Assembly (NCBI GenBank): GCA_021324465.1
Contig: JAJPJB010000024.1
Location: 45,176-109,175, forward strand
Source of the DNA: Hyphomicrobiaceae bacterium
Lineage (GTDB): Bacteria; Pseudomonadota; Alphaproteobacteria; Rhizobiales; Xanthobacteraceae
Direction: 5' to 3'
Length of the DNA stretch: 64,000 bases
Shown: piece by piece, positions 11,501 to 46,938 of the stretch
How positions within the stretch are numbered: position 1 is the first letter of the stretch
Layout: every line of letters begins with the position of its first letter
Notes under the pieces: model-generated
Told to the model about the DNA's origin: nothing
Database searches by the model: none
Seen by the model: the letters and a program-made list of their open reading frames with translations, nothing else
Position numbers and translations under genes: made by a program

Positions 11501-14500
11501 ACAATCATGGCGACATAGCCGCAAGGAAGGGCGGCCATGTCGATATCGAAGACAGCATAGTCCACAACCGCGGCGGGGTGATCAAAGCGACCGGGTCAGA
11601 ATCGGTTGTCGAGCTGTCAGATTCGACGGTCGATCACGGCGCGATTTCGGTCACCCATGACGGCCTCATCCAGATCGAAGGCGATTCCGGCGCCACATTC
11701 GACGATGTCGCCGTCGATCTCGACAGCCACGGCAAGGTCGAGATCGCGTCAGGGTCGATTCTGACGCTCGAAGACGGCTCGACGGTCTCGGGCGGCACAC
11801 TGGTTATCGACACCGACAGCACGCTCGATCTCGAGAACGGGCTTACGGTGCTGGCCGGCGTCGACGTGAAAAATTTGGGCGGCGTGGAAATCGATAGCTC
11901 AGACGTCACGGCAGCCTTGCAGCTCAGCGGCGGGACCACGCTTGACGGCAACATCACCGTCGGCCCCACGGGCGAGCTCGACGTCAATGGCGCGACGCTT
12001 GACGGCGCGAGCATCAACGACCAGGGCTTCGTCAATTTCGGCGGACCGGTGACGCTTGCCGGCGACAACACAATCAATATGGACGGCGGCCATTTCGCTG
12101 ACACCGCGAGCGGGGCCATCATCTATATTGCGGACGATACCAGCGCATCGCTCGGCTTCACAGGCGCGAGCGGCGCCCTTGGCAGAGTTGATATCGAGAG
12201 CCATGCGACCTTTGCCGTCAACAATGCCAAGGCGACAGACGTCGATTTCGTCGCCACCGATGGCACGTTCCAGATCGACTCCGTCAACGATATCCCCGGC
12301 ACTATCGCCGATTTCGCCAAGGGCGACGTGATCGACCTCGCCAATCTCGCCTTCTCGCCCATCCAATACGATATTTGGACGCAGGGCATCGGCGGCGGCA
12401 CGCTCGCGATCTATCAGGGATCGACGTTGGAGGAGACGCTCAATCTCTCCGGCACCTACAGCCAAAATCAGTTCGAGCTGAAGCAAGACGGCGCCGGCAC
12501 CGACGTGCTCTTGGTCGAGCCGGTTCTAAAGGGGTCAACGGCCGAGACGGTGATCGAAGGTACCACGCAAGTAAGCCTCGGCGTAACGGATCACGCCGAC
12601 GGGACGGTGACGATCACCGGCCTGCCGACCGATCTCAGCAACGTCAACAAAGGCACCTACACCGCTGCCACAGGGATCTGGACCGGCACCAAGGCGCAGT
12701 TCAACGACCTCAACTTCACGGCCGGCGATGAGGGCACGTTCGACCTGGTGATCACCGAGGCCAGTCCGAAGACCGATCCGAACACGACCACGAGCGAGAC
12801 TTATAAGCTCACCGTGACAGACGCGGCGCTGACCGCTGGAACTGTGACGGCGACCGGGGGCGTTGAGGGCGTTACGCCGACATCGCTGACGGCGTCGTTC
12901 ACTGATGCCAATCCGGGCGACCACCATGGCGACTTCACAGCGAGCATCGACTGGGGCGACGGCTTGCAGGCTTCGTCGGGCACCGTCACCTACGACAGCA
13001 CCACCAAGATCTACTCAGTCGCCGGCAGCCACACCTATGCGGAAGATGGCAGCTACGATGTCACCGTGACAGTCAACGATGACGGCGGGAGCGCGACGAC
13101 CATCACCGGCACAGCGACGGTCAGCTCGACCGCGGAGAATCCGACGTTGAGCGAAGCCGCATCGACCATTTCGCTGATGGCACAAGTGGCGACGGCGCTC
13201 GGCCTCACGCTAACGCCGGCCGACAGCGACGATTCGCTGACGGTGACGATCACCGGCGTACCGAACGGTGCGACCTTCAACGCCGGTACGCTGAATGGCA
13301 GCACTCTGACGATCACTCAAGCGCAGCTTGATGCGCTCGGTGGCCTTGGCAATCTCACCATGACCGCCGGCGGCGCCGGCGGCACCTTGCACGTGACCGC
13401 GACCAACGCGGAAGGCGGCTCGGCGAGCGAAGACCTCACCGTCAACGTGAGCGGCACGACAACGATCACGTCCGCCAATGCGCTGGGTGTCGTCACGGAC
13501 GATGATTCCTATCTCGGGAATCTGATCCTCAACGGCGGTTTCGAGACCTGGAGCTACAATTATCAAACCCGGGTCTACACCGTCCCGGATTGGACGTTTG
13601 GAGGGAATTTTTATTATCCGCCCGGTGTCGGCACTCCCGCCCACTCGGGAGGTGCCGCGCTGGATGTTTATAACTACAACCTCGGCACCGGCACGGCGAG
13701 CGAGACCTTCGCGACCGACGTCGGTCAGTCCTACCAAGTCACTTTCTACGTGTACAAGGGGCAGGGATCGACGAACTCCTTTAGCGCGCAGTGGAACGGT
13801 ACGACCGAGGTGTCGCTCATCAATTATGCGAACTTCGGCAGTTATCAGGAATATCAGTTCAGCGCCGTTGCCACGTCGAGCACGTCGACGCTGCAGTTCG
13901 ATTTCAATAGCGGCGTGGTCGGCTACTGGTTCCTGGACGACGTCTCGGTGGTGCCGGCCGGCAGCAGCCCCGGGACTGAGACACGTACCGGCACGATCAC
14001 TTTCACTGATACCGATACGGCCGACAGCCATACCGTCGGTGTGACGCCGCAGGGCAGCGGCTATCTCGGCACCTTCACCGCGAATCTCACGCAAGATTCG
14101 ACCGGCGGGAAGACCGGTAACGTCGTGTGGAACTACACCGTTGGCGATTCCGCCCTGGCATCGCTTTCCCCCGGCCAGGAGGTCACTCAGACCTACGAGG
14201 TCACCGTCAACGGCGCCGACAGCGCGCCGGTGCAACAGGCTGTCACCATCCAACTTGTCGGCATCCAACAGCCGACGGGTTTCGTGTTCACGCCCTACAC
14301 GGCAGGCTTGAGTTCATTGGAGCAGGGCGACCATCTCAACAGCGGCGGTGGCGGAGAGATCGGCACGTTCACTCAGAGCGGGGGACTGAGCGGCGACAAC
14401 TACGCGTTCTCGATCGGCGGCACAGGCCTCTCCTACTTCTCTCCGGATGGCCTGATTGCCAACGAGGAAATCCTCTATACGGCGAATACCCAGACCGTTC

Positions 14501-33535: not shown

Positions 33536-34372
33536 TTATATCCTGATCTCGCCGAGATTGATGCTGACCCCAAGATGGGCTTCGACCATTTTCGAACGGC
33601 CGCCGGCGTAAATCTGCACCGTATACGCACCGGAATCCTCGTCGAGCTTGTCGAATTTGAAGTCGCCGTAATTGTCGGTCGTTGTCACCGCGATCGACGC
33701 GCCGTCTTTGACCAGTTGGACGCTCGCACCTTCGACGCAGTCGACGACGCCGTCCTTTTCCTCGGCCACCGAGCCGCCGATGAAGCACTTCGAGTAGCGC
33801 CACAGGTTGCGGTAGTAGACCCGGGGCCTAGTGCCAAGCTCCGGCTTCAGCACTTCAAGCTGTTGCTCGTTCGCGATTCGCGCCATCTCGTCGTCCTCAA
33901 GCTTGATCGCGCGCATCGCTCCGGTCGGACAGGATTGCTGGCCGCGGGTCTGCTGCCAGCCCTGGTCGAGCAAATGGGCGTCGAACGTCCAGGCCTGCGG
34001 CAGCTGCAATTCCTCGTTCCACCAGATATGCCCGTACGGACATGCGTCGACGAGCTGCTTTTGTCCCTTGGCCTTCACCGGGTGGATCAGCACGATGCCG
34101 TCCCGGCGCTTCTTGATGGCGCCTTTCGGCGCCGCCTTGATGCAAGGCGCGTCGTCGCAGTGATTGCACATGGTCGGAACATAGGCGATGTCGATCATCG
34201 GCATCTGCCCGCGCTCCTTCTGCAGGATATTGATCCACTTGTGACCGTGTTTCGGCATCGGCGCCGAATAGCCGGGCCATTCATTGCCGACATATTCGTC
34301 CATGGCGGCGAGCGTGCACAAATTGCAATTTGTGCACTCGGCCACGTCGATGATCAGGTTCCATTTTTTCAT
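33536..34372 (-). CDS. Pyrogallol-phloroglucinol transhydroxylase-like small subunit (Fe-S, with C-terminal Ig-like domain)
   Basis: At 278 residues it follows the transhydroxylase beta-subunit layout: ferredoxin-like motifs ECTNCNLC (near 13-19), [22 protein letters not shown], and a C-terminal Cna-B/carboxypeptidase-regulatory-like domain from about 205 ([19 protein letters not shown]). Compared with the Pelobacter enzyme as remembered, the fourth Cys of the first motif is Ala, the CxxC of the later motif is WTFD, and one more Cys is lost (QSCPTGA). Only eight of the twelve cluster Cys remain, so at most two [4Fe-4S] clusters seem possible. The ATG overlaps the stop of the large-subunit gene (ATGA), which indicates stoichiometric expression. 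Confidence 0.85.
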
Positions 34373-37300
34373 TTGGCTGGCACCAGTTCCGCTTGTTTCA
34401 ATGTGCGTTTTATGCCCGTGTCCTTCTCCATTGCAGCAAAGCTAGCGGAGAGATGATCTGTACCGCCATCCCACAGCTCGATCTGCACCAGCGCGTTCGA
34501 GCCGGCGAGCGAATGGGTGGACTTGGTCTGCGTGCGCTCCGGCGTCAGCAGGTTGAGACAGCCGCCGCGATCGACTGACTTGCCGGGCTCACCCATTGGA
34601 TCGTAGATCGCCGATGACTCGTAGCCGTGGGCGACACCGCGCGGCAAGCGCTGGGTCGGCAATGCCGCGCAGATCACCGCGCCGCGATCGTTGAAGACCT
34701 TGACCAGATCATGCGTGCCGATGCCGCGCTCCTTGGCGTCATCGGCGTTCATCCGCACGATCCAATAATAGTAGCCGTCGATGTAGACGCGGTGGTCTTC
34801 GATGTTGAGCAGGAACGAGTCCTTGCCGTCGCCCTGCGTGTGGAACGAATATTTGGAATGCGGTGTCAGAAGCTGCAGCGGATAGCGCTGAAACAGGTCT
34901 CCAGAATGCGGCCCTTCCCACGAAGGCGTGTATTTGACGATCGGCGGCCGTTCCGGATCATTGAAGCGTTTCAATGAGTTACATTCGAATTCAAGCTTGC
35001 CGGACTGGGTCTGTAGGCCGCGCAGATATTCCTCCGTGTAGTCGGACGGCAGCGGCTGCGCTTCCGGCACGTCCTTTTTGCGGTTTTCGAAGAACCAGCG
35101 GAACGAAACCGGCGCGCGCAACTTCTCCTTCTCCGCCGGCACGACGAAATAGCCGCGCCTTAAAAATTTCTTCCACGAGATGTGCCTTGGCAGGTCGGAA
35201 GCTAGAAATGCGCGCTTGACCCAGTCGATTTCGTTGATGCCTTCCGAAAAGTAGTTGGCGAGCCCCAGCGGCTTGCACAGCTCGTTGAAGATCCAGAAGT
35301 CCGACTTTGATTCTCCCAGCGGCTTGATCGCCGGCGCCTGAAATACGATCACGCGATGATTGAGCTGCTGCTGGCCGTGATGGCCATAGCCACCAAGGCC
35401 CGCCCATTCGCTGATATCGGTACGCTCGAAATTGGTGCAGGCCGGCAGAATCACGTCGGCGAATTTCGCCTCGCCCTCGAACCAGATCGACTGGTTGACG
35501 ACGAATTCGAGATTGGGCGCTTGATACATCCGCACCCAGCGGTTGGTGTTGTTCATGGTCGAGAGAATCGAGCCGCCGTATTTGTAGAGCATATGCACCG
35601 GCGAATGGCCTGCGGCCGGGTAGGAGAAGCGGGCGAATTGGTGCTCGATCGATTTGCCGACCCATGGATAGCCGTCGGCCTTGCCCTCGATGATCGCTTC
35701 CGGCGTGAAAATGCGCGGGATGCGCTGCCCGTTTGAATTCATGCTCGGCAGCTGCGGCATGCGCTGATAGAGCTCGACCGGCATCGCGGTGTTTTCCAGA
35801 TCGCCCGACATGCCGCCATCGGCATAGCCGGGAAAATAGAAATTGAAGTCGATCGGCGTGCCCCATTGCAGATTGCCCATATTCACGCCTGGCTTGCCCA
35901 GGCCCTGCATGGCGATGAGGCACACCATGACGCGCGCCCAAGGAATGCCGGTCTGATTGCGGCAGGCGCCGCCATGGCCGTTGCCCCAGCCGCCGGGCGC
36001 AAGATAGACACGCTTTCGTCCCCATTCGCGCGCCAGCGCGCGCACGTCCTTGGCGGGGACGCCGGTCTCTTTTTCTTGCCATTCCGGCGTTTTTTGAACG
36101 CCGTCTTCGTCGCCGAGCAGATAGGCTTTCCACCTGTCGAAGCCAACCGTGCGGGTTGCGACGTAATCCTTGTCGTAGAGATCTTCCTTGATCCACACGT
36201 AAGCGATCGCCATGGCCATGGCGACCGACGTGGTCGGCCTTGGCGCGAACCATTTGCCGGGCAGAAATTGCGCCGAGGCGTTGTAATAAGGATCGACGTG
36301 GACGACCTTGATGCCGAGCTTTTGGTTCTTCAGCCACTGCCGGCGCGTGGTGCCTTCCTGCGCGCCATAGGAGCCTGACGTCGATTCCGGGTCGGCCGCC
36401 CAGAACACGATCATGTCGCAGTTCTGCAGACAGTCCTCGACCGTGCCGTAAGTCTCGGATTGGCCGACGCGCAGCGTGTGGCCCCAGTGATGGACCGCCC
36501 CCCAGTACCAGCCCTCCCAGGAGTCCGGATTGTGATGGATGCGCGTCATGCCCACCGCATTGGCGAAGCGGAACAGGGCGGAGAGATAATAGCCGATATT
36601 GCCCCAGGTATGATGCGAGCCGTGCGAGAAGGCGATTGAGCCCGGACCGTACTCGCGCTTTTGCCGCTTGATCTCGTCGGTGACGATCTTGATCGCTTCG
36701 TGCCACGAGATGCGCACATAGCCGGACTTGCCACGGTTCTGCGGATTGCGCTCGCCATCGGGATCGAAGTCGACCCGCTTCATCGGATAGAGCAGGCGAT
36801 CGGGCGAATAGACGATGGACTTTGCGTTCTGCCCATGCGGGGCGAGCGTCGTTTTGCGCGGCGGCGCGAGTTTTAGGCCCTTCGCCTCGATCGTCCATGA
36901 CGCGCCGTCATCCTCAGCGAGATCGATCGGCGTCATGCGCAGGATCTTGCCGTCCTTGACGTAAACAAACACCGGCCCGCCATTGGTCATGTTGCAATAG
37001 CGTGTTACGCCACGGCCAACTTTTGTGCCGTATTTGAGCCCGGCAGTCTGACTCATCATCAATGTTTGTGCGAACCAATTGGTGAGATGCTCCGGCCCCT
37101 CCAGCGTGAGCGTGAAATCCTTCTGAGCATTGATCTGTTCAAGCCAATCGATCGGCGGCGTCAGCAATGCGGCGCCGACCGCAGCGTTCTTGAACATCAA
37201 TTTGATGTCAGGCTTGTCATGCAGACCGGCGGCCGAGGTGACGTCTCCGTCCTTAAATTCGATCCAGCGGCCGATTCCTTCATCGCGCGTCATGATCTGC

Positions 37301-37431
37301 GCGATGAGATTGTGCTCCTTAAGCCGCGCTTTGAATTCCGCATGCCGCCGCGCCGCGTGTTTGAGCAACTGCGCCGCGCCGAACAGGATGACCGGCAATC
37401 TGACGCCAGCGAATGCCACCTTCCTCGACAT
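34369..37431 (-). CDS. SCP2-like domain fused to transhydroxylase-like molybdopterin oxidoreductase large subunit
   Basis: The ATG at 37431 follows AGGAGG (GGAGGAAGCC) and gives 1020 residues; the track's extra 70 are upstream DNA. Residues about 30-135 resemble an SCP2 lipid-binding domain ([31 protein letters not shown]). From about 139 the protein matches the bis-MGD large subunit of pyrogallol-phloroglucinol transhydroxylase and resorcinol hydroxylase: [62 protein letters not shown]. The DSW motif places Ser as the Mo ligand, and His, Tyr and Asp partners are kept; a Cys in the Pelobacter site is Leu here. There is no twin-Arg signal, so the enzyme is probably cytoplasmic. The reaction would be hydroxylation or hydroxyl transfer on polyhydroxylated aromatics (inferred). 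Confidence 0.85.
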
Positions 37432-37546
37432 TGGCTTCCTCCTTCGCCCCCCTTTGGCGCGGTCTGTCCTTGGCGCCGCGGCTATGGTTCTGTTGGCTTG
37501 CGGCGGCCACCGCGGGAAGCGGCAATTCTGCAATATTTTTCGAGCC

Positions 37547-37594
37547 TTGGACACTCCACTTGGACGCTCCACTTGGACGCTCCACTCGGACACT
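37547..37594. promoter_or_regulatory. Tandem 13-bp repeats between divergent Mo-enzyme and TetR genes
   Basis: Three full units TTGGACrCTCCAC begin at 37547, 37560 and 37573; a fourth partial unit (TCGGACACT) begins at 37586. Each junction makes a 10-bp palindrome TCCACTTGGA (the last one TCCACTCGGA). The array lies 116 bases from the large-subunit start and 127 from the TetR start, where a regulator of the divergent pair would bind. Head-to-tail spacing of 13 bp is a little over one helical turn. Confidence 0.6.
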
Positions 37595-37720
37595 GAATGA
37601 CCTTGAAGATGTTCGCACAGTGGACAGCCCGCCGTCAGCACTGCGGCTTATATTGCCGGTCGCGGCAAAATCGATCAGGGTGCGGCTCGATCTTAGTATC
37701 GGTGATTTAGAGACTTTGCG

Positions 37721-38530
37721 ATGAGGACACCGGCGCAGTCCAAGTCATTGGCGTCGACGACTTGGCATTCGATCGCGCCGAAGTCGCGACCTGCGAAGGC
37801 CCGGGATCTTCCGGGCGGCGGGCGCGCAAAAGGATCGCCGCGCCGCGCCGACCCCTCGCGCACGCGCCCGCGCCGCAACGCTGCCGCGACACGTGCGCGA
37901 ATCCTGCAAGCGGCCATGCGGGAATTCGCCGCCAAAGGCCTTGATGCGGCGCGCGTCGAGGACATCGCCGAGATGGCCGGGGCCAATCGCCGCATGGCCT
38001 ATTATTACTTCGGCAGCAAAGAGGGGCTGTATCTCGCCGCGCTGGAAGCCGCTTACTTCGAACTGGTCGAAGTGGAGAAGGCGATCGATGTCGACGCGCT
38101 CGGTCCTATCGACGCCATCGCGGCGATGATCTCCGCAAAGTTCGAGCATTACGTCAAATATCCGCACTACGTTGAATTCGTGAAGATGGAGAACCTCTAT
38201 CGCGCGCGGCATTTGAAGCGTTCACGCCGGATCGCCGAAATGCGCGCGCCTCTGATCAGCATCATCAGGCGCGTACTGGAGCGGGGCGCGGCGACCGGCG
38301 TTTTGCGCAGCGGCGTCGATCCGCTCGATCTTTACTTGTCGATCTGCGCGCTCGGATTTTTTGTGTTCTCCAATCGGCACACATTGGGCGCAATCTTCAA
38401 TACCGACGTCACCAGCGCGACGGCCTTGCGCCGCCGCCGCGCGCTGGTGATCGATATGATCATGGCCTATCTCGCGCCGAAAAGGCCGGGCGGCAAACAA
38501 GACGGAGCGTTCGACAGCCGGCCAACTTGA
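37721..38530 (+). CDS. TetR/AcrR-family transcriptional regulator
   Basis: The DNA-binding domain is at about residues 52-100: ATRARILQAAMREFAAKGLDAARVEDIAEMAG, followed by NRRMAYYYFGSKEGLY, the turn-recognition helix typical of the RutR/YcdC-like TetR subgroup. The C-terminal ligand-binding half (about 105-255) includes HYVEFVKMENLYRARHL. The first 50 residues are basic and Pro/Arg-rich and may be a linker or an over-extended start; internal GTG/ATG choices cannot be decided. It is divergent from the molybdenum-enzyme operon, and its stop codon overlaps the -35 box of the next operon, so it is a good candidate regulator of one or both. Confidence 0.85.
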   Translation: MRTPAQSKSLASTTWHSIAPKSRPAKARDLPGGGRAKGSPRRADPSRTRPRRNAAATRARILQAAMREFAAKGLDAARVEDIAEMAGANRRMAYYYFGSKEGLYLAALEAAYFELVEVEKAIDVDALGPIDAIAAMISAKFEHYVKYPHYVEFVKMENLYRARHLKRSRRIAEMRAPLISIIRRVLERGAATGVLRSGVDPLDLYLSICALGFFVFSNRHTLGAIFNTDVTSATALRRRRALVIDMIMAYLAPKRPGGKQDGAFDSRPT

Positions 38531-38568
38531 CAGTATCGGCCCGCAAATTTAACTCACCCGAGAGTTAA
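38527..38568 (+). promoter_or_regulatory. Promoter with overlapping operator for the epimerase-M24-cupin-ABC operon
   Basis: A perfect TTGACA (38527-38532, containing the TetR stop codon) is followed after 17 bases by TAACTC, a weak -10. The -10 overlaps the left arm of a perfect palindrome TTAACTC-N6-GAGTTAA (38549-38568). The layout, with an operator over the -10 just downstream of a TetR gene, suggests repression by that TetR. The epimerase ATG is 25 bases further on. Confidence 0.55.
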
Positions 38569-38593: not shown

Positions 38594-39565
38594 ATGAAGG
38601 TCTTGATTACCGGCGGGGTGGGGGTGATCGGCGCCGAGACCAGCCGCAAATTCGTGCGTGAGGGCCACCGCCCGGTCGTTTTTGCCCGCCACCGGGACGA
38701 CAGCCTGATCGGCGACATTGTCGACAGGATCGATTTCGAGCCCGGCGACATTCTCGACATGCCGCGGCTTCTCGACGTCATCAAGCGGCATCGCGTAACG
38801 CATATTGTTCATGCCGCCGCCTTCGTCGGCGCGGTCTCCGCCGCCAATCCGCCGCTGAGCATTCAGGTCAATGTCATGGGCACTGTGAACGTGCTCGAGG
38901 GCGCGCGGCTGTTCGACATCCGCCGCCTCGTATTCACCAGCGCCAAGGGCATCTATGGGCCGATCCGCGGCGAATACGGCCCGCCGCTCTACCGGCCGAT
39001 GCCCGAGGACATGCCAAAGAATCCGCAGCGCATCTACGACAGCGCCAAGCTGATGGCCGAGCAGGCCTCGCTCTACTACGCGGCCAATTTCGATGTCGAC
39101 GTTGCGATCCTGCGCTTTGCCACGACCTATGGCCCCGGCAAGACGGCGCGTCATGGCAAGATGGGTGTCACCAGCCAGATCGTCGAAAATCCGTTTAATG
39201 GTCTGCCTTTTCATCACCCCTATGGCAGCGAAGCCAAGGACGACTTCATCTACAACAAGGACTCGGCTCTTGCTGTCTATCTCGCCGCCGTCGCCGACAA
39301 AGTGCCGAGTCGTGTCTATAATATCGGTAGCGGCGAGGGTCTGACGTTGAATGACTTCGCCGCGGTGATCCGCAAGCAGATTCCTGGTGCCGATATTGAG
39401 ATCGGGCCGGGTGACAATTTTCTCGGCATGCCATACCCGCCGCACGGCATCTACGATGTCAGCCGCGCGCGCAGCGAGCTCGGCTTCAAGCCGGAATATG
39501 ACATCGAGCGGGCCATCGCCGATTATATCGAGAGCCTCAAGCGCATGAGGGCGCAAAGCCATTGA
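38594..39565 (+). CDS. NAD-dependent epimerase/dehydratase (extended SDR)
   Basis: A 323-residue extended short-chain dehydrogenase. The Rossmann motif is ITGGVGVIGAE at the N-terminus. The active-site region is FTSAKGIYGP followed by YDSAKLMAEQASLYYA, giving the YxxxK pair. HHPYGSEAKDDFIYNKD and YNIGSGEGLTLNDFAAVI are typical of nucleotide-sugar epimerases and related enzymes. It is the first gene of a tightly spaced operon with an M24-family protein, a cupin and an ABC importer, so its substrate may be a small imported compound rather than a nucleotide sugar; this is inferred from context. Confidence 0.88.
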   Translation: MKVLITGGVGVIGAETSRKFVREGHRPVVFARHRDDSLIGDIVDRIDFEPGDILDMPRLLDVIKRHRVTHIVHAAAFVGAVSAANPPLSIQVNVMGTVNVLEGARLFDIRRLVFTSAKGIYGPIRGEYGPPLYRPMPEDMPKNPQRIYDSAKLMAEQASLYYAANFDVDVAILRFATTYGPGKTARHGKMGVTSQIVENPFNGLPFHHPYGSEAKDDFIYNKDSALAVYLAAVADKVPSRVYNIGSGEGLTLNDFAAVIRKQIPGADIEIGPGDNFLGMPYPPHGIYDVSRARSELGFKPEYDIERAIADYIESLKRMRAQSH

Positions 39566-39592
39566 TGGCCGCTGACCAGAACGGAGCGCGCA

Positions 39593-40816
39593 ATGCGTGA
39601 AAAACTCGAGCTGCCGCGGCTGTCAATGAAAGAGCGCGATCGCCGCTGGGCCCTGACGCGCAAAGACATGGAAACGCGCGGCCTTGATTGCCTCGTGCTC
39701 TGGGGTTGGCCCGCAGTGTGGGACTTCTGTACTGCGAATGCGCGCTACTTGGCGCCGATCGGCGGCAATGCCGAATTCAACGTGCTGGTGTTTCCGCTGC
39801 ACGGCGAACCGACGTCCTATGTGATGATGCCGACCTTTGTCGACGGCTGGCGCGCAGCACAAGACTGGGTCGCCGATGTGCGGCCGCGGCGGCGGACCTG
39901 GGCCGATTCTGTCGTCGAGCGGATCAACGAGCTCGGGCTGACCAAAGGACGCATCGGCATCGACGGCCTGGCTGGTCCGCTCGATCCGGACGGCTGGCTG
40001 CCGCACAGCGTCTATGTGCGGCTGCAGGAACTCCTGCCGCAAGCCGAATTCATCAATCTCGACGACATGATGGAAATGCTGCGCACCGTCAAAAGCGACG
40101 AGGAGCTGCAAATCCTCGCGCGTGCGGCTCGGCTCGGCGATCTGATGCTGACCAACTGCCGCGATACGGCGCGGCCCGGGGTCAAAGAATCGAAAGTCTA
40201 TGGCAGCATGATGGAGACCATGCTCGCCAATGGCGGCGAAGAGCCGACGTTGTTTCTGTGGGCCTGTGACGCGCTGCCTTATCCGCATCCGTTCCGCATG
40301 CCGACCACGCGCGAAATCGCGCGCGGCGACCTGATCATCTGCGAGATTCATCCCAAGATCGGCGGCTATTACACTCATGTCGAGCGCACTTTCTGCATCG
40401 GCGAGCCAAGGCCGGAGCAGAGGCGCATCTATGAGGGATGCCTCGACGCCTACGACGAAGGCATGAGAAATTTCGGCCCCGGCCGGCCGATTTCAGTCGC
40501 CATGGACAAAGTGCGCGATGTCATTCACGCGCGCGGGCTCGGCATGTGCGAGACCGGTATACACGGCCACGGGCTCGCCTCGCTCGAATATCCGCGCTAT
40601 CGGCATCATGCAATCGCCGCGGATCAGGCCGCACTGAAGAAGCTCGGCGATGCCTTCCGGTCCGGCATGGTGTTCGCGTTCAACATTGATCTGGTCGATC
40701 CGAACTTCTACGACGGCAAGACCGGCTGCGTTTTTGCCGAAACCGTGCTGATCACTGAGACCGGCGCCAAGCGGCTCCACGATTATCCGATGAGTTTCCA
40801 AACAATCGCAGTATGA
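39593..40816 (+). CDS. M24-family (creatinase/aminopeptidase P-like) protein with altered metal site
   Basis: The 407-residue protein has the creatinase-type N-terminal domain (to about residue 160) and a pita-bread C-terminal domain. Metallopeptidases of this fold use Asp-Asp-His-Glu-Glu. Here the two Asp positions read CEIHP and YTHVERTF (Glu and His). The central His motif HGHGLASLEYP is kept. The first Glu position reads VFAFNIDL (Asn) and the last reads FAETVLITE, with Glu shifted by one. A dinuclear-metal peptidase is therefore unlikely; a creatinase-like hydrolase or a lyase is more plausible. It lies 27 bases after the epimerase gene and 18 before the cupin gene, in one operon with a NitT/TauT-type importer. 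Confidence 0.8.
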   Translation: MREKLELPRLSMKERDRRWALTRKDMETRGLDCLVLWGWPAVWDFCTANARYLAPIGGNAEFNVLVFPLHGEPTSYVMMPTFVDGWRAAQDWVADVRPRRRTWADSVVERINELGLTKGRIGIDGLAGPLDPDGWLPHSVYVRLQELLPQAEFINLDDMMEMLRTVKSDEELQILARAARLGDLMLTNCRDTARPGVKESKVYGSMMETMLANGGEEPTLFLWACDALPYPHPFRMPTTREIARGDLIICEIHPKIGGYYTHVERTFCIGEPRPEQRRIYEGCLDAYDEGMRNFGPGRPISVAMDKVRDVIHARGLGMCETGIHGHGLASLEYPRYRHHAIAADQAALKKLGDAFRSGMVFAFNIDLVDPNFYDGKTGCVFAETVLITETGAKRLHDYPMSFQTIAV

Positions 40817-40834
40817 GTAGGGAGGGGCACGCGC

Positions 40835-41344
40835 GTGACCGACACTAAGCCAAGCTATCCGCCGATCCGCCGTGTGGTCACCGGACATGATGGCGCGGTC
40901 GCCAAGGTGCTGTTCGACGGGCCGGCGACCAATGCCAAATATCCCTCGGCCGGCACCGTCTCGACGCTGATCTGGAGCACGGACAAAACGCCGGCGGCGA
41001 TCCCCATCGGCACCAATATCGAAGATATGGGCGCCCGCATCCTGGGCACGGCGCCGCCCGCCAATGGCACACGTTTTGCGGTCATTGACTTCCCGCCCGG
41101 CAATAAGCCGCATATGCACCGGACCGAAACTATCGATTATGTGCTGGTGCTCGAGGGCGAGATCGAAATGGACATGGACGATTCGACGGTGAAGCTGAAG
41201 GCCGGTGACGTGATGGTGCAGCGCGGCACCAATCACGCCTGGGCCAATCGCAGCTCGTCGCGCGCCCGCGTCGCCTTTGTGCTGATCGATGCCGAGCCGC
41301 TCGGTATCGGCAGGCCGGTGGTCGGCACGGCGAACGCGCGCTAG
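40835..41344 (+). CDS. Cupin-domain protein
   Basis: A 169-residue single-cupin protein starting at GTG 40835, preceded by GGGAGGGGCAC. Cupin motif 1 is PHMHRTETIDYVLVLEGEIEM, with the two His and the Glu that bind a metal. Motif 2 is AGDVMVQRGTNHAWANRS, with the third His. The metal site looks intact. Cupins of this layout, with an N-terminal part of about 80 residues, are common in catabolic operons as isomerases, dioxygenases or sensors. The position between the M24-like gene and the ABC transporter genes suggests a role in the same pathway. Reaction unknown. Confidence 0.85.
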   Translation: MTDTKPSYPPIRRVVTGHDGAVAKVLFDGPATNAKYPSAGTVSTLIWSTDKTPAAIPIGTNIEDMGARILGTAPPANGTRFAVIDFPPGNKPHMHRTETIDYVLVLEGEIEMDMDDSTVKLKAGDVMVQRGTNHAWANRSSSRARVAFVLIDAEPLGIGRPVVGTANAR

Positions 41345-41356
41345 TAGATCATCGCG

Positions 41357-42136
41357 ATGCTCGAATTCCGCAACATCAGCTTTTCCTTTCCGGGACGCCG
41401 CGGCCCGGTCGAGGTCCTGCGCGACGTCTCCTTTACCTGTGCGGAGGACGAGATTGTTGCGGTCATCGGGCCGAGCGGTTGCGGCAAGTCAACGCTGCTC
41501 AGCCTCGCTATCGGCCTGCGCAAACCGACCGCCGGCGAGGTGCTCCTGGACGGCCGGCCCGTCAAAGGCGCCGACCGCCGGCTCGGCATGCTGTTTCAGC
41601 AAACGACGCTGCTGCCTTGGCGATCGGTGCTCGAGAATATCGAGCTGGGACTTGAAATCCGCGGCGAGCTCAAGGCGCAGCGGCGCAAACGCGCGCTCGC
41701 ACTGATGCAGCAATACGGCCTGGCCGGTTTCGAGCGCAAGTATCCGCACGCTCTGTCCGGCGGGATGCAGAAGCGCGCAGCGCTCGCGCAAACGCTGGCG
41801 ATAGAGCCGACCGTGCTGTTGCTCGACGAACCGTTCGCCGCGCTCGACGCGCAGACCCGCGTCGTCATCGAAAACGATGTCGTGAAAATCTGCCGCGCCG
41901 GCAAGCGCACCATGGTGATCGTCACGCATGATATCGCGGAAGCGATCTCGATGGCCGATCGCGTCGTCGTGCTCAGCCGCCGGCCCGCGACAGTAAAGCA
42001 GATCTATCAAATCCCGCTCAGCCGCAAAGCGGCAAACGTCGCCGACGTGCCGAGCATGCAGGAATTCACTTACTTCTTCAAAAGCATCTGGGATGCTCTC
42101 GACATCAGCGTCACTGGCATGAGCGCAGCCGCATGA
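41357..42136 (+). CDS. ABC transporter ATP-binding protein, NitT/TauT family
   Basis: A 259-residue ATPase with Walker A GPSGCGKST, Q-loop LFQQTTLLPW, signature LSGGMQKRAALAQ, Walker B VLLLDEPFAALD and the H-loop IVTHDIAEAISMADRV. It energises import across the inner membrane with the permease encoded next (ATGA overlap) and the binding protein after that. The SsuB/TauB-type ATPases it resembles import nitrate, taurine, alkanesulfonates, aromatic sulfonates and pyrimidine precursors. The ligand here is unknown, and there are no sulfonatase genes beside it. Confidence 0.95.
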   Translation: MLEFRNISFSFPGRRGPVEVLRDVSFTCAEDEIVAVIGPSGCGKSTLLSLAIGLRKPTAGEVLLDGRPVKGADRRLGMLFQQTTLLPWRSVLENIELGLEIRGELKAQRRKRALALMQQYGLAGFERKYPHALSGGMQKRAALAQTLAIEPTVLLLDEPFAALDAQTRVVIENDVVKICRAGKRTMVIVTHDIAEAISMADRVVVLSRRPATVKQIYQIPLSRKAANVADVPSMQEFTYFFKSIWDALDISVTGMSAAA

Positions 42137-42909
42137 CGAGGCTCTCCCACCGGCCGCTTGTCATCCTGGGACGCCTGGCGGTACTGGCGATCATCTTGAT
42201 CGGTGCGGAGCTTGGCGTCCGTTATGGCATGCTGAGCCAACTCTTCTTCTCGAGCCCAAGCCAGATCTTCGAGGCGTTGCTCACGCAATGGTCGAATGGG
42301 AGCTTCCTGCAGGACGCCGGCATCACGATCCTGGAGACCATGCTCGGCCTCGCGGCCGGCTCGCTTTTGGGGATGGGCATCGGATTACTGCTGCCGCAGT
42401 TGCGCCTGCTTTCAAGCGTCTTCGAGCCGTTTCTCATGGTGCTCAACGGCATTCCCGTCATCGTGATCGCACCATTGTTTATTCTCTGGCTTGGTCTGGG
42501 CGTACCGTCGAAGATCGGGATCAGCGTTTACATCGTGTTTTTTGCCATGTTCATTCCGGTCTATACCGCCTCGCTGCGACTTGATACGACGCTGGTCGAC
42601 GCGCTGCGGGTAATGGGAGCGAGCCGCAGCCAGATCTTTTGGAAAGTCATCGTGCCCTCATCGCTGCCGAGCGTCTATACCGGCTTGAAGATCGGCTCGG
42701 GATTGGCGCTGATCGGCGCGGTCATCGGCGAGTTCGTCGCCTCCCGCGCCGGGCTCGGACACATGATTCTATACGCATCCGGCACGCTCGATACGCCGAC
42801 GCTCTATCTCGGCATTCTCACGCTCGCGATCTTCGCGGCGGCTTTGAGTCTCACTATCGACGCCCTGGGTCCCGTGCTCGTGCACTGGCGATTTTCGGAC
42901 GAGAAATAA
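42133..42909 (+). CDS. ABC transporter permease, NitT/TauT family
   Basis: A 258-residue membrane protein with about six transmembrane helices and the BPD_transp_1 coupling motif region LDTTLVDALRVMGASRSQIFWKVIVPSSLPSVYTGLKIG (the EAA-type loop), which docks onto the ATPase. The start ATG overlaps the stop of the ATPase gene (ATGA), as usual for paired subunits. It is followed after 37 bases by the binding-protein gene, with a short GCCGCC-TGAA-GGCGGC hairpin between. Confidence 0.95.
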   Translation: MTRLSHRPLVILGRLAVLAIILIGAELGVRYGMLSQLFFSSPSQIFEALLTQWSNGSFLQDAGITILETMLGLAAGSLLGMGIGLLLPQLRLLSSVFEPFLMVLNGIPVIVIAPLFILWLGLGVPSKIGISVYIVFFAMFIPVYTASLRLDTTLVDALRVMGASRSQIFWKVIVPSSLPSVYTGLKIGSGLALIGAVIGEFVASRAGLGHMILYASGTLDTPTLYLGILTLAIFAAALSLTIDALGPVLVHWRFSDEK

Positions 42910-42913
42910 CGAA

Positions 42914-42929
42914 GCCGCCTGAAGGCGGC
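42914..42929 (+). promoter_or_regulatory. Intercistronic hairpin before the binding-protein gene
   Basis: GCCGCC-TGAA-GGCGGC forms a 6-bp stem with a 4-base loop in the 37-base gap between the permease and binding-protein genes. There is no T-run, so it is more likely an mRNA-stability element that protects the 3' segment than a terminator. Higher binding-protein expression is common in such operons. Confidence 0.45.
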
Positions 42930-42946
42930 AACAGAGGGAGAGAACC

Positions 42947-43900
42947 ATGCGATATCTCGCACCGATTACGGCGGCCGCGCTGGCGCTCGCATTTGCGCGG
43001 CCCGCGCAAGCCGAGACTGTGAAACTCGCGCTGCCCGTCGCCTCGCTCGAATCGCTGCCGATCTACATCGCGCAAGCGAACGGCTTGTTCAAGAAGCGCG
43101 ATGTCGATGTCGACGTCATCACGAGCCGCGGCGGCGGTGAAGCGATGAAGGCCTATATCGCCGGCGACGTGCAGATCGTGGCCACCGGGTTTCCGGAAGT
43201 CGGCCTCATGCGCGCGCGCAATGTCGATGTCGAACTGTTCTTCGCACAGATGTCCCGCGCGCCGTTCGCACTGATCGGACGTAAAGACGAAAACTTGAAA
43301 TCGGTTGCCGACCTCAAGGGCAAGACCATTGCGGTGACCAGTCCTGGCTCGCTGACGGCGAACTTGACCCGCTATTTCGTCAAGGATGCCGGGCTCGATC
43401 CTGACAAGGACGTCAGCCTGATCTCGGTCGGTGGCGGCGGCGAGATTTTGGGCGCGCTCAAGAGCAGCCGCGCCGACGCGGCGATGCTGTTCGAGCCGTT
43501 CGTGACCATCGCCCTTCAGCAGGGCATCGCGACCATGCTGGTTGATGTGCCGGAAAAGCTCGACGCATTCTCGTCGTCACCGCTCTCCACGAGCAAGACG
43601 TTCATCGAAAAATCGTCAAAGGACGCACGCGGGGTCTTTGACGGGCTCGCCGAGGCTTTGACCTTTATTCACAATAATCCCTCCGGCGCATTCGATATCG
43701 CCAAGCGGAACTTTCCCAGTGCCGATAATCAGGTGCTGCAGGCGGCGCTGGGGCGCTTGCAGAAATGGTATTCCAGAGATGGAAAATTCGGTCGCGAACA
43801 CGTCGAGCGAACGGAAAAGATTTCGGTTGATTTGAAGATCATGCCGCAGGCCTATCCTTATGACGATGTGGTTGCACCCATGGCCCGGGAGGGCGGCTAA
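42947..43900 (+). CDS. ABC transporter substrate-binding protein, NitT/TauT family
   Basis: A 317-residue protein with signal peptide MRYLAPITAAALALAFARPAQA and a mature start ETVKLALPVASLESLPIYIAQANGLF, the characteristic NMT1/SsuA-like opening. Downstream are SRGGGEAMKAYIAGDVQIVATG and DLKGKTIAVTSPGSLTANLTRYF. It delivers the ligand to the permease/ATPase pair encoded immediately upstream. It is the last gene of the operon that begins with the epimerase; a hairpin candidate lies 143 bases further on. Confidence 0.93.
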   Translation: MRYLAPITAAALALAFARPAQAETVKLALPVASLESLPIYIAQANGLFKKRDVDVDVITSRGGGEAMKAYIAGDVQIVATGFPEVGLMRARNVDVELFFAQMSRAPFALIGRKDENLKSVADLKGKTIAVTSPGSLTANLTRYFVKDAGLDPDKDVSLISVGGGGEILGALKSSRADAAMLFEPFVTIALQQGIATMLVDVPEKLDAFSSSPLSTSKTFIEKSSKDARGVFDGLAEALTFIHNNPSGAFDIAKRNFPSADNQVLQAALGRLQKWYSRDGKFGREHVERTEKISVDLKIMPQAYPYDDVVAPMAREGG

Positions 43901-46134: not shown

Positions 46135-46938
46135 ATGCAGGCAACCGGCACGCGCGCTTTGAGCGTCAGGAGCAGTGCGAAAGGCAGCGATAAGAGTCAG
46201 GTGCAGGTGATTTCGCGTGCGGCCGCAATCCTGCGCGTTCTTGAGGACGAGGTCGACGGCTTGAGCCTCGGCCAGATCGCACACCGCGTCGGTCTGGCGC
46301 GCTCGACGGTACAGCGCATCGTTGGTGCGCTTGCCGCCGAGAAATTTCTGATTGCGGCCTCCCCGAATGGCCGTGTGCGGCTCGGCCCGACGATCTTGCG
46401 GCTTGCCGCATCAGCGCGCACCGATTTCGTCGCGGCGGCGCGCCCGTTCCTAATGCGGCTGTCGAACGAGCTGAAAGAGACCGCCGATCTCGCCGTAATC
46501 AAGGGTGATCATCTGGTGTTCGTCGATCAGGTGGTGGGCTCACACCGCCTGCGGGCCGTCTCGGCGGTCGGCGAAAGCTTTCCACTCTATTGCACGGCCA
46601 ACGGCAAGGCCTATCTCGCCGAGCTGGACGCTGCCGCAATCGAACGGCTGATCGGCACGACTTACGAGCGTCGCACGCCAAACACGCTGACACGGCTCGA
46701 GGACCTCACCCGAGACCTCAAATCCGTGCGCAAGGCGGGCGTTGCCATTGACCGCGAGGAACACACGCAGGGCATCTGCGCTGCCGGCGTCGTCACCCGC
46801 GATCCGATGGGCAACGTGCTGGCGATCTCGGTGCCGGTCCCGGCGCACCGCTTTTATACGCATCAAAAACACATTGTGGAGCGGCTGCGCGCAACCAAGG
46901 AGTCGCTCGAGCGGCATCTTTTGGCAGCTGCAGCATAG
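46135..46938 (+). CDS. IclR-family transcriptional regulator
   Basis: About 267 residues from the ATG at 46135; the track start at 46045 adds 30 residues lying in the divergent promoter region. The N-terminal winged helix (residues about 25-85) reads QVISRAAAILRVLEDEVDGLSLGQIAHRVGLARSTVQRIVGALAAEKFL. The effector domain follows, with FVDQVVGSHRLRAVSAVGESFPLYCTANGKAYLAEL and the conserved GICAAGVV near the end. IclR regulators typically control neighbouring aromatic or carboxylate catabolic genes. A near-perfect 22-bp palindrome lies 30 bases after its stop, before the cyclase operon, and a related half-site lies in the divergent gap upstream. Confidence 0.92.
   Translation: MQATGTRALSVRSSAKGSDKSQVQVISRAAAILRVLEDEVDGLSLGQIAHRVGLARSTVQRIVGALAAEKFLIAASPNGRVRLGPTILRLAASARTDFVAAARPFLMRLSNELKETADLAVIKGDHLVFVDQVVGSHRLRAVSAVGESFPLYCTANGKAYLAELDAAAIERLIGTTYERRTPNTLTRLEDLTRDLKSVRKAGVAIDREEHTQGICAAGVVTRDPMGNVLAISVPVPAHRFYTHQKHIVERLRATKESLERHLLAAAA

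Follow-up and report, generated by a model that had tools for sequence, protein, structure and literature searches.

Usual operators of TetR-family regulators measure 15 bp or more. IclR proteins can use three boxes or tandem palindromes (PMC8222616). Operators of the PcaU, PobR and HmgR type, which stand near catabolic promoters, alternate inverted with direct half-sites (PMC8222616), and the array shares both features. In Neisseria and Haemophilus, repeats within promoters alter expression through spacing or through the number of binding sites (PMC3899988). Like the bacterial promoter minisatellites and VNTR loci, the array described here, which lies in a stretch of 64,000 nucleotides (the window), is built of short, near-identical intergenic units arranged head to tail and is found in one lineage; it overlaps a –35-like element yet leaves the spacing between –35 and –10 unaltered. 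As a kind, it is a promoter-proximal minisatellite. We consider it probably a lineage-specific, minisatellite-like slippage duplication beside the –35-like element, rather than an operator for the TetR protein encoded next to it. It resembles TetR-family operators in having small palindromes near a tetR gene, but its arms are only 4 bp long, and a conserved site elsewhere is the better operator candidate for the TetR. The features of the locus are collected in Table 1.

Table 1. Features of the array locus, in window coordinates
Feature	Position	Strand	Basis or description
4Fe-4S subunit of the Mo enzyme	33539..34372	-	
Large subunit of the Mo enzyme, pyrogallol hydroxytransferase-like	34372..37434	-	4v4c (pyrogallol hydroxytransferase large subunit), E 6e-286
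Conserved core TGTCCA(A)-N13-TTGCA in the Mo-operon promoter region	37529..37553	-	alignment with congeners
13-bp tandem array	37547..37594	.	three complete units, then 9 bp of a fourth
TetR-family regulator (TetR_N + TetR_C_29)	37721..38527	+	
Predicted TetR operator, TTAACTCACCCGAGAGTTAA, TTAACTC-N6-GAGTTAA	38549..38568	.	L143 and L144 share its arms and placement
Operon of the TetR: SDR, M24 peptidase-like, cupin, ABC ATPase, permease, binding protein	38594..43897	+	

On the plus strand the array reads TTGGACACTCCAC (37547–37559), two identical copies of TTGGACGCTCCAC (37560–37572 and 37573–37585) and the nine bases TCGGACACT (37586–37594); one whole unit has A for G relative to the two identical ones. 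The 13-bp tandem units described in the initial annotation are thus present in the sequence, and Tandem Repeats Finder gave them the top score of any tandem repeat in the window (37546–37594, period 13, 3.8 copies, score 77). Their head-to-tail near-identity exceeds chance: the period-13 self-match score was 27, and 25 order-3 Markov copies of the window reached at most 18 over periods 7 to 40, and 11 at period 13. A search of 37300–37800 against Rfam matched no RNA element. Translation through the array, in a long open reading frame from GTG 37641, was set aside because ATG 37434 has an AGGAGGA Shine-Dalgarno sequence ahead of it and alignments with relatives begin approximately there.

The overlapping palindromes that had also been described fared less well. 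The elements TCCACTTGGA do occur in the array, with no arm as long as 5 bp, but 17.8% of the 13-mers drawn from the window yielded an equally good pair of 4-bp dyads once tandemised. With these tandemised 13-mers as control, the inverted repeats of the array did not exceed chance, and they are therefore not independent evidence for an operator. Any tandemised 13-mer containing both TGGA and TCCA will form two dyads automatically.

The initial annotation placed the array in a divergent promoter serving both the TetR and the Mo-enzyme genes. It does adjoin the promoter region of the Mo operon, which lies to its left and is transcribed leftwards from 37434, but not the TetR start at 37721. The gene for the Mo enzyme is carried by 10 of 19 congeners (76–91% identity), and in 8 of these 10 loci a core T(T/G)TC(C/A)A(A/T)-N13-TTGCA stands approximately 96–107 bases ahead of the start codon, a match expected by chance about 0.001 times per sequence. 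The core was degenerate in L126 and absent in L133. In the window it stands 119 bases ahead of the start codon; its –35-like hexamer TGTCCA (37553–37548) sits inside the first, that is the terminal, unit of the array, and a –10-like CAGAAT (37530–37525) follows 17 bp beyond. A scan with the sigma-70 consensus called no promoter at this core; its conservation, spacing and position suggest that it is one. A sigma-54 promoter was considered and rejected: a GG-N10-GC arrangement was seen by eye in one congener (L130) and was absent from the others.

The array itself is restricted to one lineage and is not conserved with the Mo operon. The species is represented by one genome, and comparison was made with congeners and with other genomes of the order. 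None of the eight core-bearing congeners has the array, a search of 397 other genomes of the order that allowed up to three mismatches did not find it, and the intergenic region of the window had no homologous match at the array's place among members of the genus. Most congeners keep a single copy of the corresponding stretch, which reads TGGAGAGTTTCCAA in L128, L129 and L134 against TGGAGTGTCCAA in the array, both placed 13 bp ahead of TTGCA. One congener, L125, has an unrelated repeat of its own at the equivalent place, GCGGA three times, just upstream of TTTCAATCACG. Within the whole genome the two-unit pattern of the array is unique. Arrays scoring at least 77 numbered six in 464 kb of this genome, or about one per 77 kb, the window's own included (400 kb of stretches were sampled; the count covers 464 kb), and several of the six are probably in coding DNA. 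Another of the six, the array with most copies in the genome sample, was an 11-bp one of 7.4 copies, CTTGCATCGGA, at 11973–12053 of L153 (G000:C65), with overlapping open reading frames. Elsewhere in the intergenic region, 28 bases of the window (37659–37686) were 93% identical to positions 1501–1528 of the congener L137, inside what by eye resembles a pyrE gene; the similarity may be chance or a gene remnant.

The position of the TetR gene was examined through its relatives, five of which (47–73% identity) were found among 300 genomes of the family. In L143 and L144, from another genus, the tetR-sdr-M24-cupin-ABC operon is fully colinear at 74–85% identity, and the TetR orthologues themselves are 71–73% identical. 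In the window, the gene products from the cupin to the binding protein were named by reading translations. L145 keeps the operon at 71–81% identity with a divergent tetR, and L147 retains sdr and the M24 gene. By this synteny, TetR is assigned to the rightward sdr operon.

Between tetR and sdr, approximately 1,000 bases from the array, lies a perfect inverted repeat, the predicted operator of Table 1. It overlaps the –10 region in the promoter of sdr, which has TTGACA at 38527–38532 and a 16-bp spacer. On the coding strand the site reads TTAACTCACGCGCGAGTTAA in L143 and TTAACTCACACGTGAGTTAA in L144, and in these two loci as in the window it extends over the –10 position of a promoter that has TTGAC(A/T/G) and a spacer of 16–17 bp. 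Sequences related to the palindrome were present in L145 and L147, and the pattern, with its N8 spacing, occurs at one place in the whole genome. The window TetR and the L143 and L144 proteins have an identical segment, NRRMAYYYFGSKEGLYLAALE, that covers the recognition helix. We infer that TetR would bind this palindrome. Since the palindrome is conserved and NRRMAYYYFGSKEGLYLAALE is identical in the orthologues, TetR most likely represses sdr and the genes downstream through it.

These results bear directly on the proposal of the initial annotation that the array is a ladder of tandem operators for cooperative binding of the neighbouring TetR, and on control of both divergent promoters by such binding. 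Adjacency and divergent orientation speak for it, but TetR travels with the sdr operon and not with the Mo operon. Within up to 4 kb of flank at the 80 nearest Mo-operon homologue loci, tblastn (E 1e-5) found no TetR relative. The same method detects TetR relatives of 34–48% identity elsewhere, and a moderately similar TetR at the Mo loci would therefore have shown; a very divergent TetR, or one past a short contig end, would have escaped the search. The array motif is likewise absent from all five loci with a TetR relative (L143–L147), among them those of the orthologues with an identical NRRMAYYYFGSKEGLYLAALE, L143 and L144, in which a different, perfect palindrome is kept between tetR and sdr. 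The TGGA-N3-TCCA and TCCA-N2-TGGA elements are, moreover, short compared with usual TetR operators. Synteny and the conserved alternative site together rule against binding of TetR to the array, and control of both promoters from it is scarcely credible. The absence of the array from all congeners and from the other sampled genomes of the order favours instead slippage, which the initial annotation had offered as its alternative.

A different regulator might use the array, for instance an IclR-family protein whose TGGA/TCCA half-sites would cover the –35 of the Mo operon and extend upstream of it. The location suits a regulator, TGGA-N5-TCCA occurs at the array's place in L128, L129 and L134, a relative (L045) has an open reading frame directly upstream of the Mo gene that is IclR-like by eye, and the window holds one IclR gene, with an IclR-family regulator domain (about 46414–46905). 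The closest functional analogy to the array is offered by IclR-type multi-box operators, with a misfit in arrangement, spacing and sequence: the array has 13-bp units, against 18–22 nt between IclR tandem sites, and another arrangement of boxes (PMC8222616). Compared by eye, its units fit neither the group 1 consensus GKTYCRYW3-4RYGRAMC nor the group 2 consensus TGRAACAN1-2TGTTYCA (PMC8222616). No IclR gene adjoins the Mo operon, the nearest in the genome being approximately 9 kb off on the far side of the TetR operon; half-site spacing and sequence are not kept in L125, L127 and L130–L132, and the palindromes are within chance. An operator for a non-TetR regulator is unlikely. A more specific version is very unlikely: tandem copying of a half-palindromic –35 element would recently have amplified an operator for another regulator of the Mo operon, and the array and the GCGGA repeat of L125 would be independent amplifications at one regulatory hotspot. 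A phase-variable promoter, with the Mo operon turned up or down as units are gained or lost, in the way of promoter repeats in Neisseria and Haemophilus (PMC3899988), is likewise very unlikely. Gain or loss of units keeps the distance from the –35 position to TTGCA, although the first base of the hexamer changes from T to C. High instability is not expected of 13-bp units at fewer than four copies, which also counts against phase variation.

In the slippage reading, a 13-bp stretch containing and flanking the –35-like element of the Mo promoter would have been copied in tandem through replication slippage. The added copies would have been placed upstream of that element, and the –35-like hexamer would still come from the terminal unit, spaced at the conserved 17 bp. 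Removal of whole units in silico left the distance to TTGCA unchanged and turned the hexamer TGTCCA into CGTCCA; loss of a unit therefore need not be wholly silent. Slippage from the –35 flank would explain the single copy in congeners, the repeat of L125, the absence of the array elsewhere and the six arrays of the genome. The duplication is located precisely where a regulator would bind, and this counts against the slippage reading; the near-identity of the units is compatible with a recent origin but equally with selection. The array is real, lineage-specific and probably ordinary.

The value of this result is mainly corrective: taken as a TetR operator, the array would have joined two unrelated operons. 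The analysis also yields a well-supported operator prediction for the TetR_C_29 regulator of the SDR/M24/cupin/ABC operon, and a predicted, conserved core promoter element for the pyrogallol hydroxytransferase-like operon.
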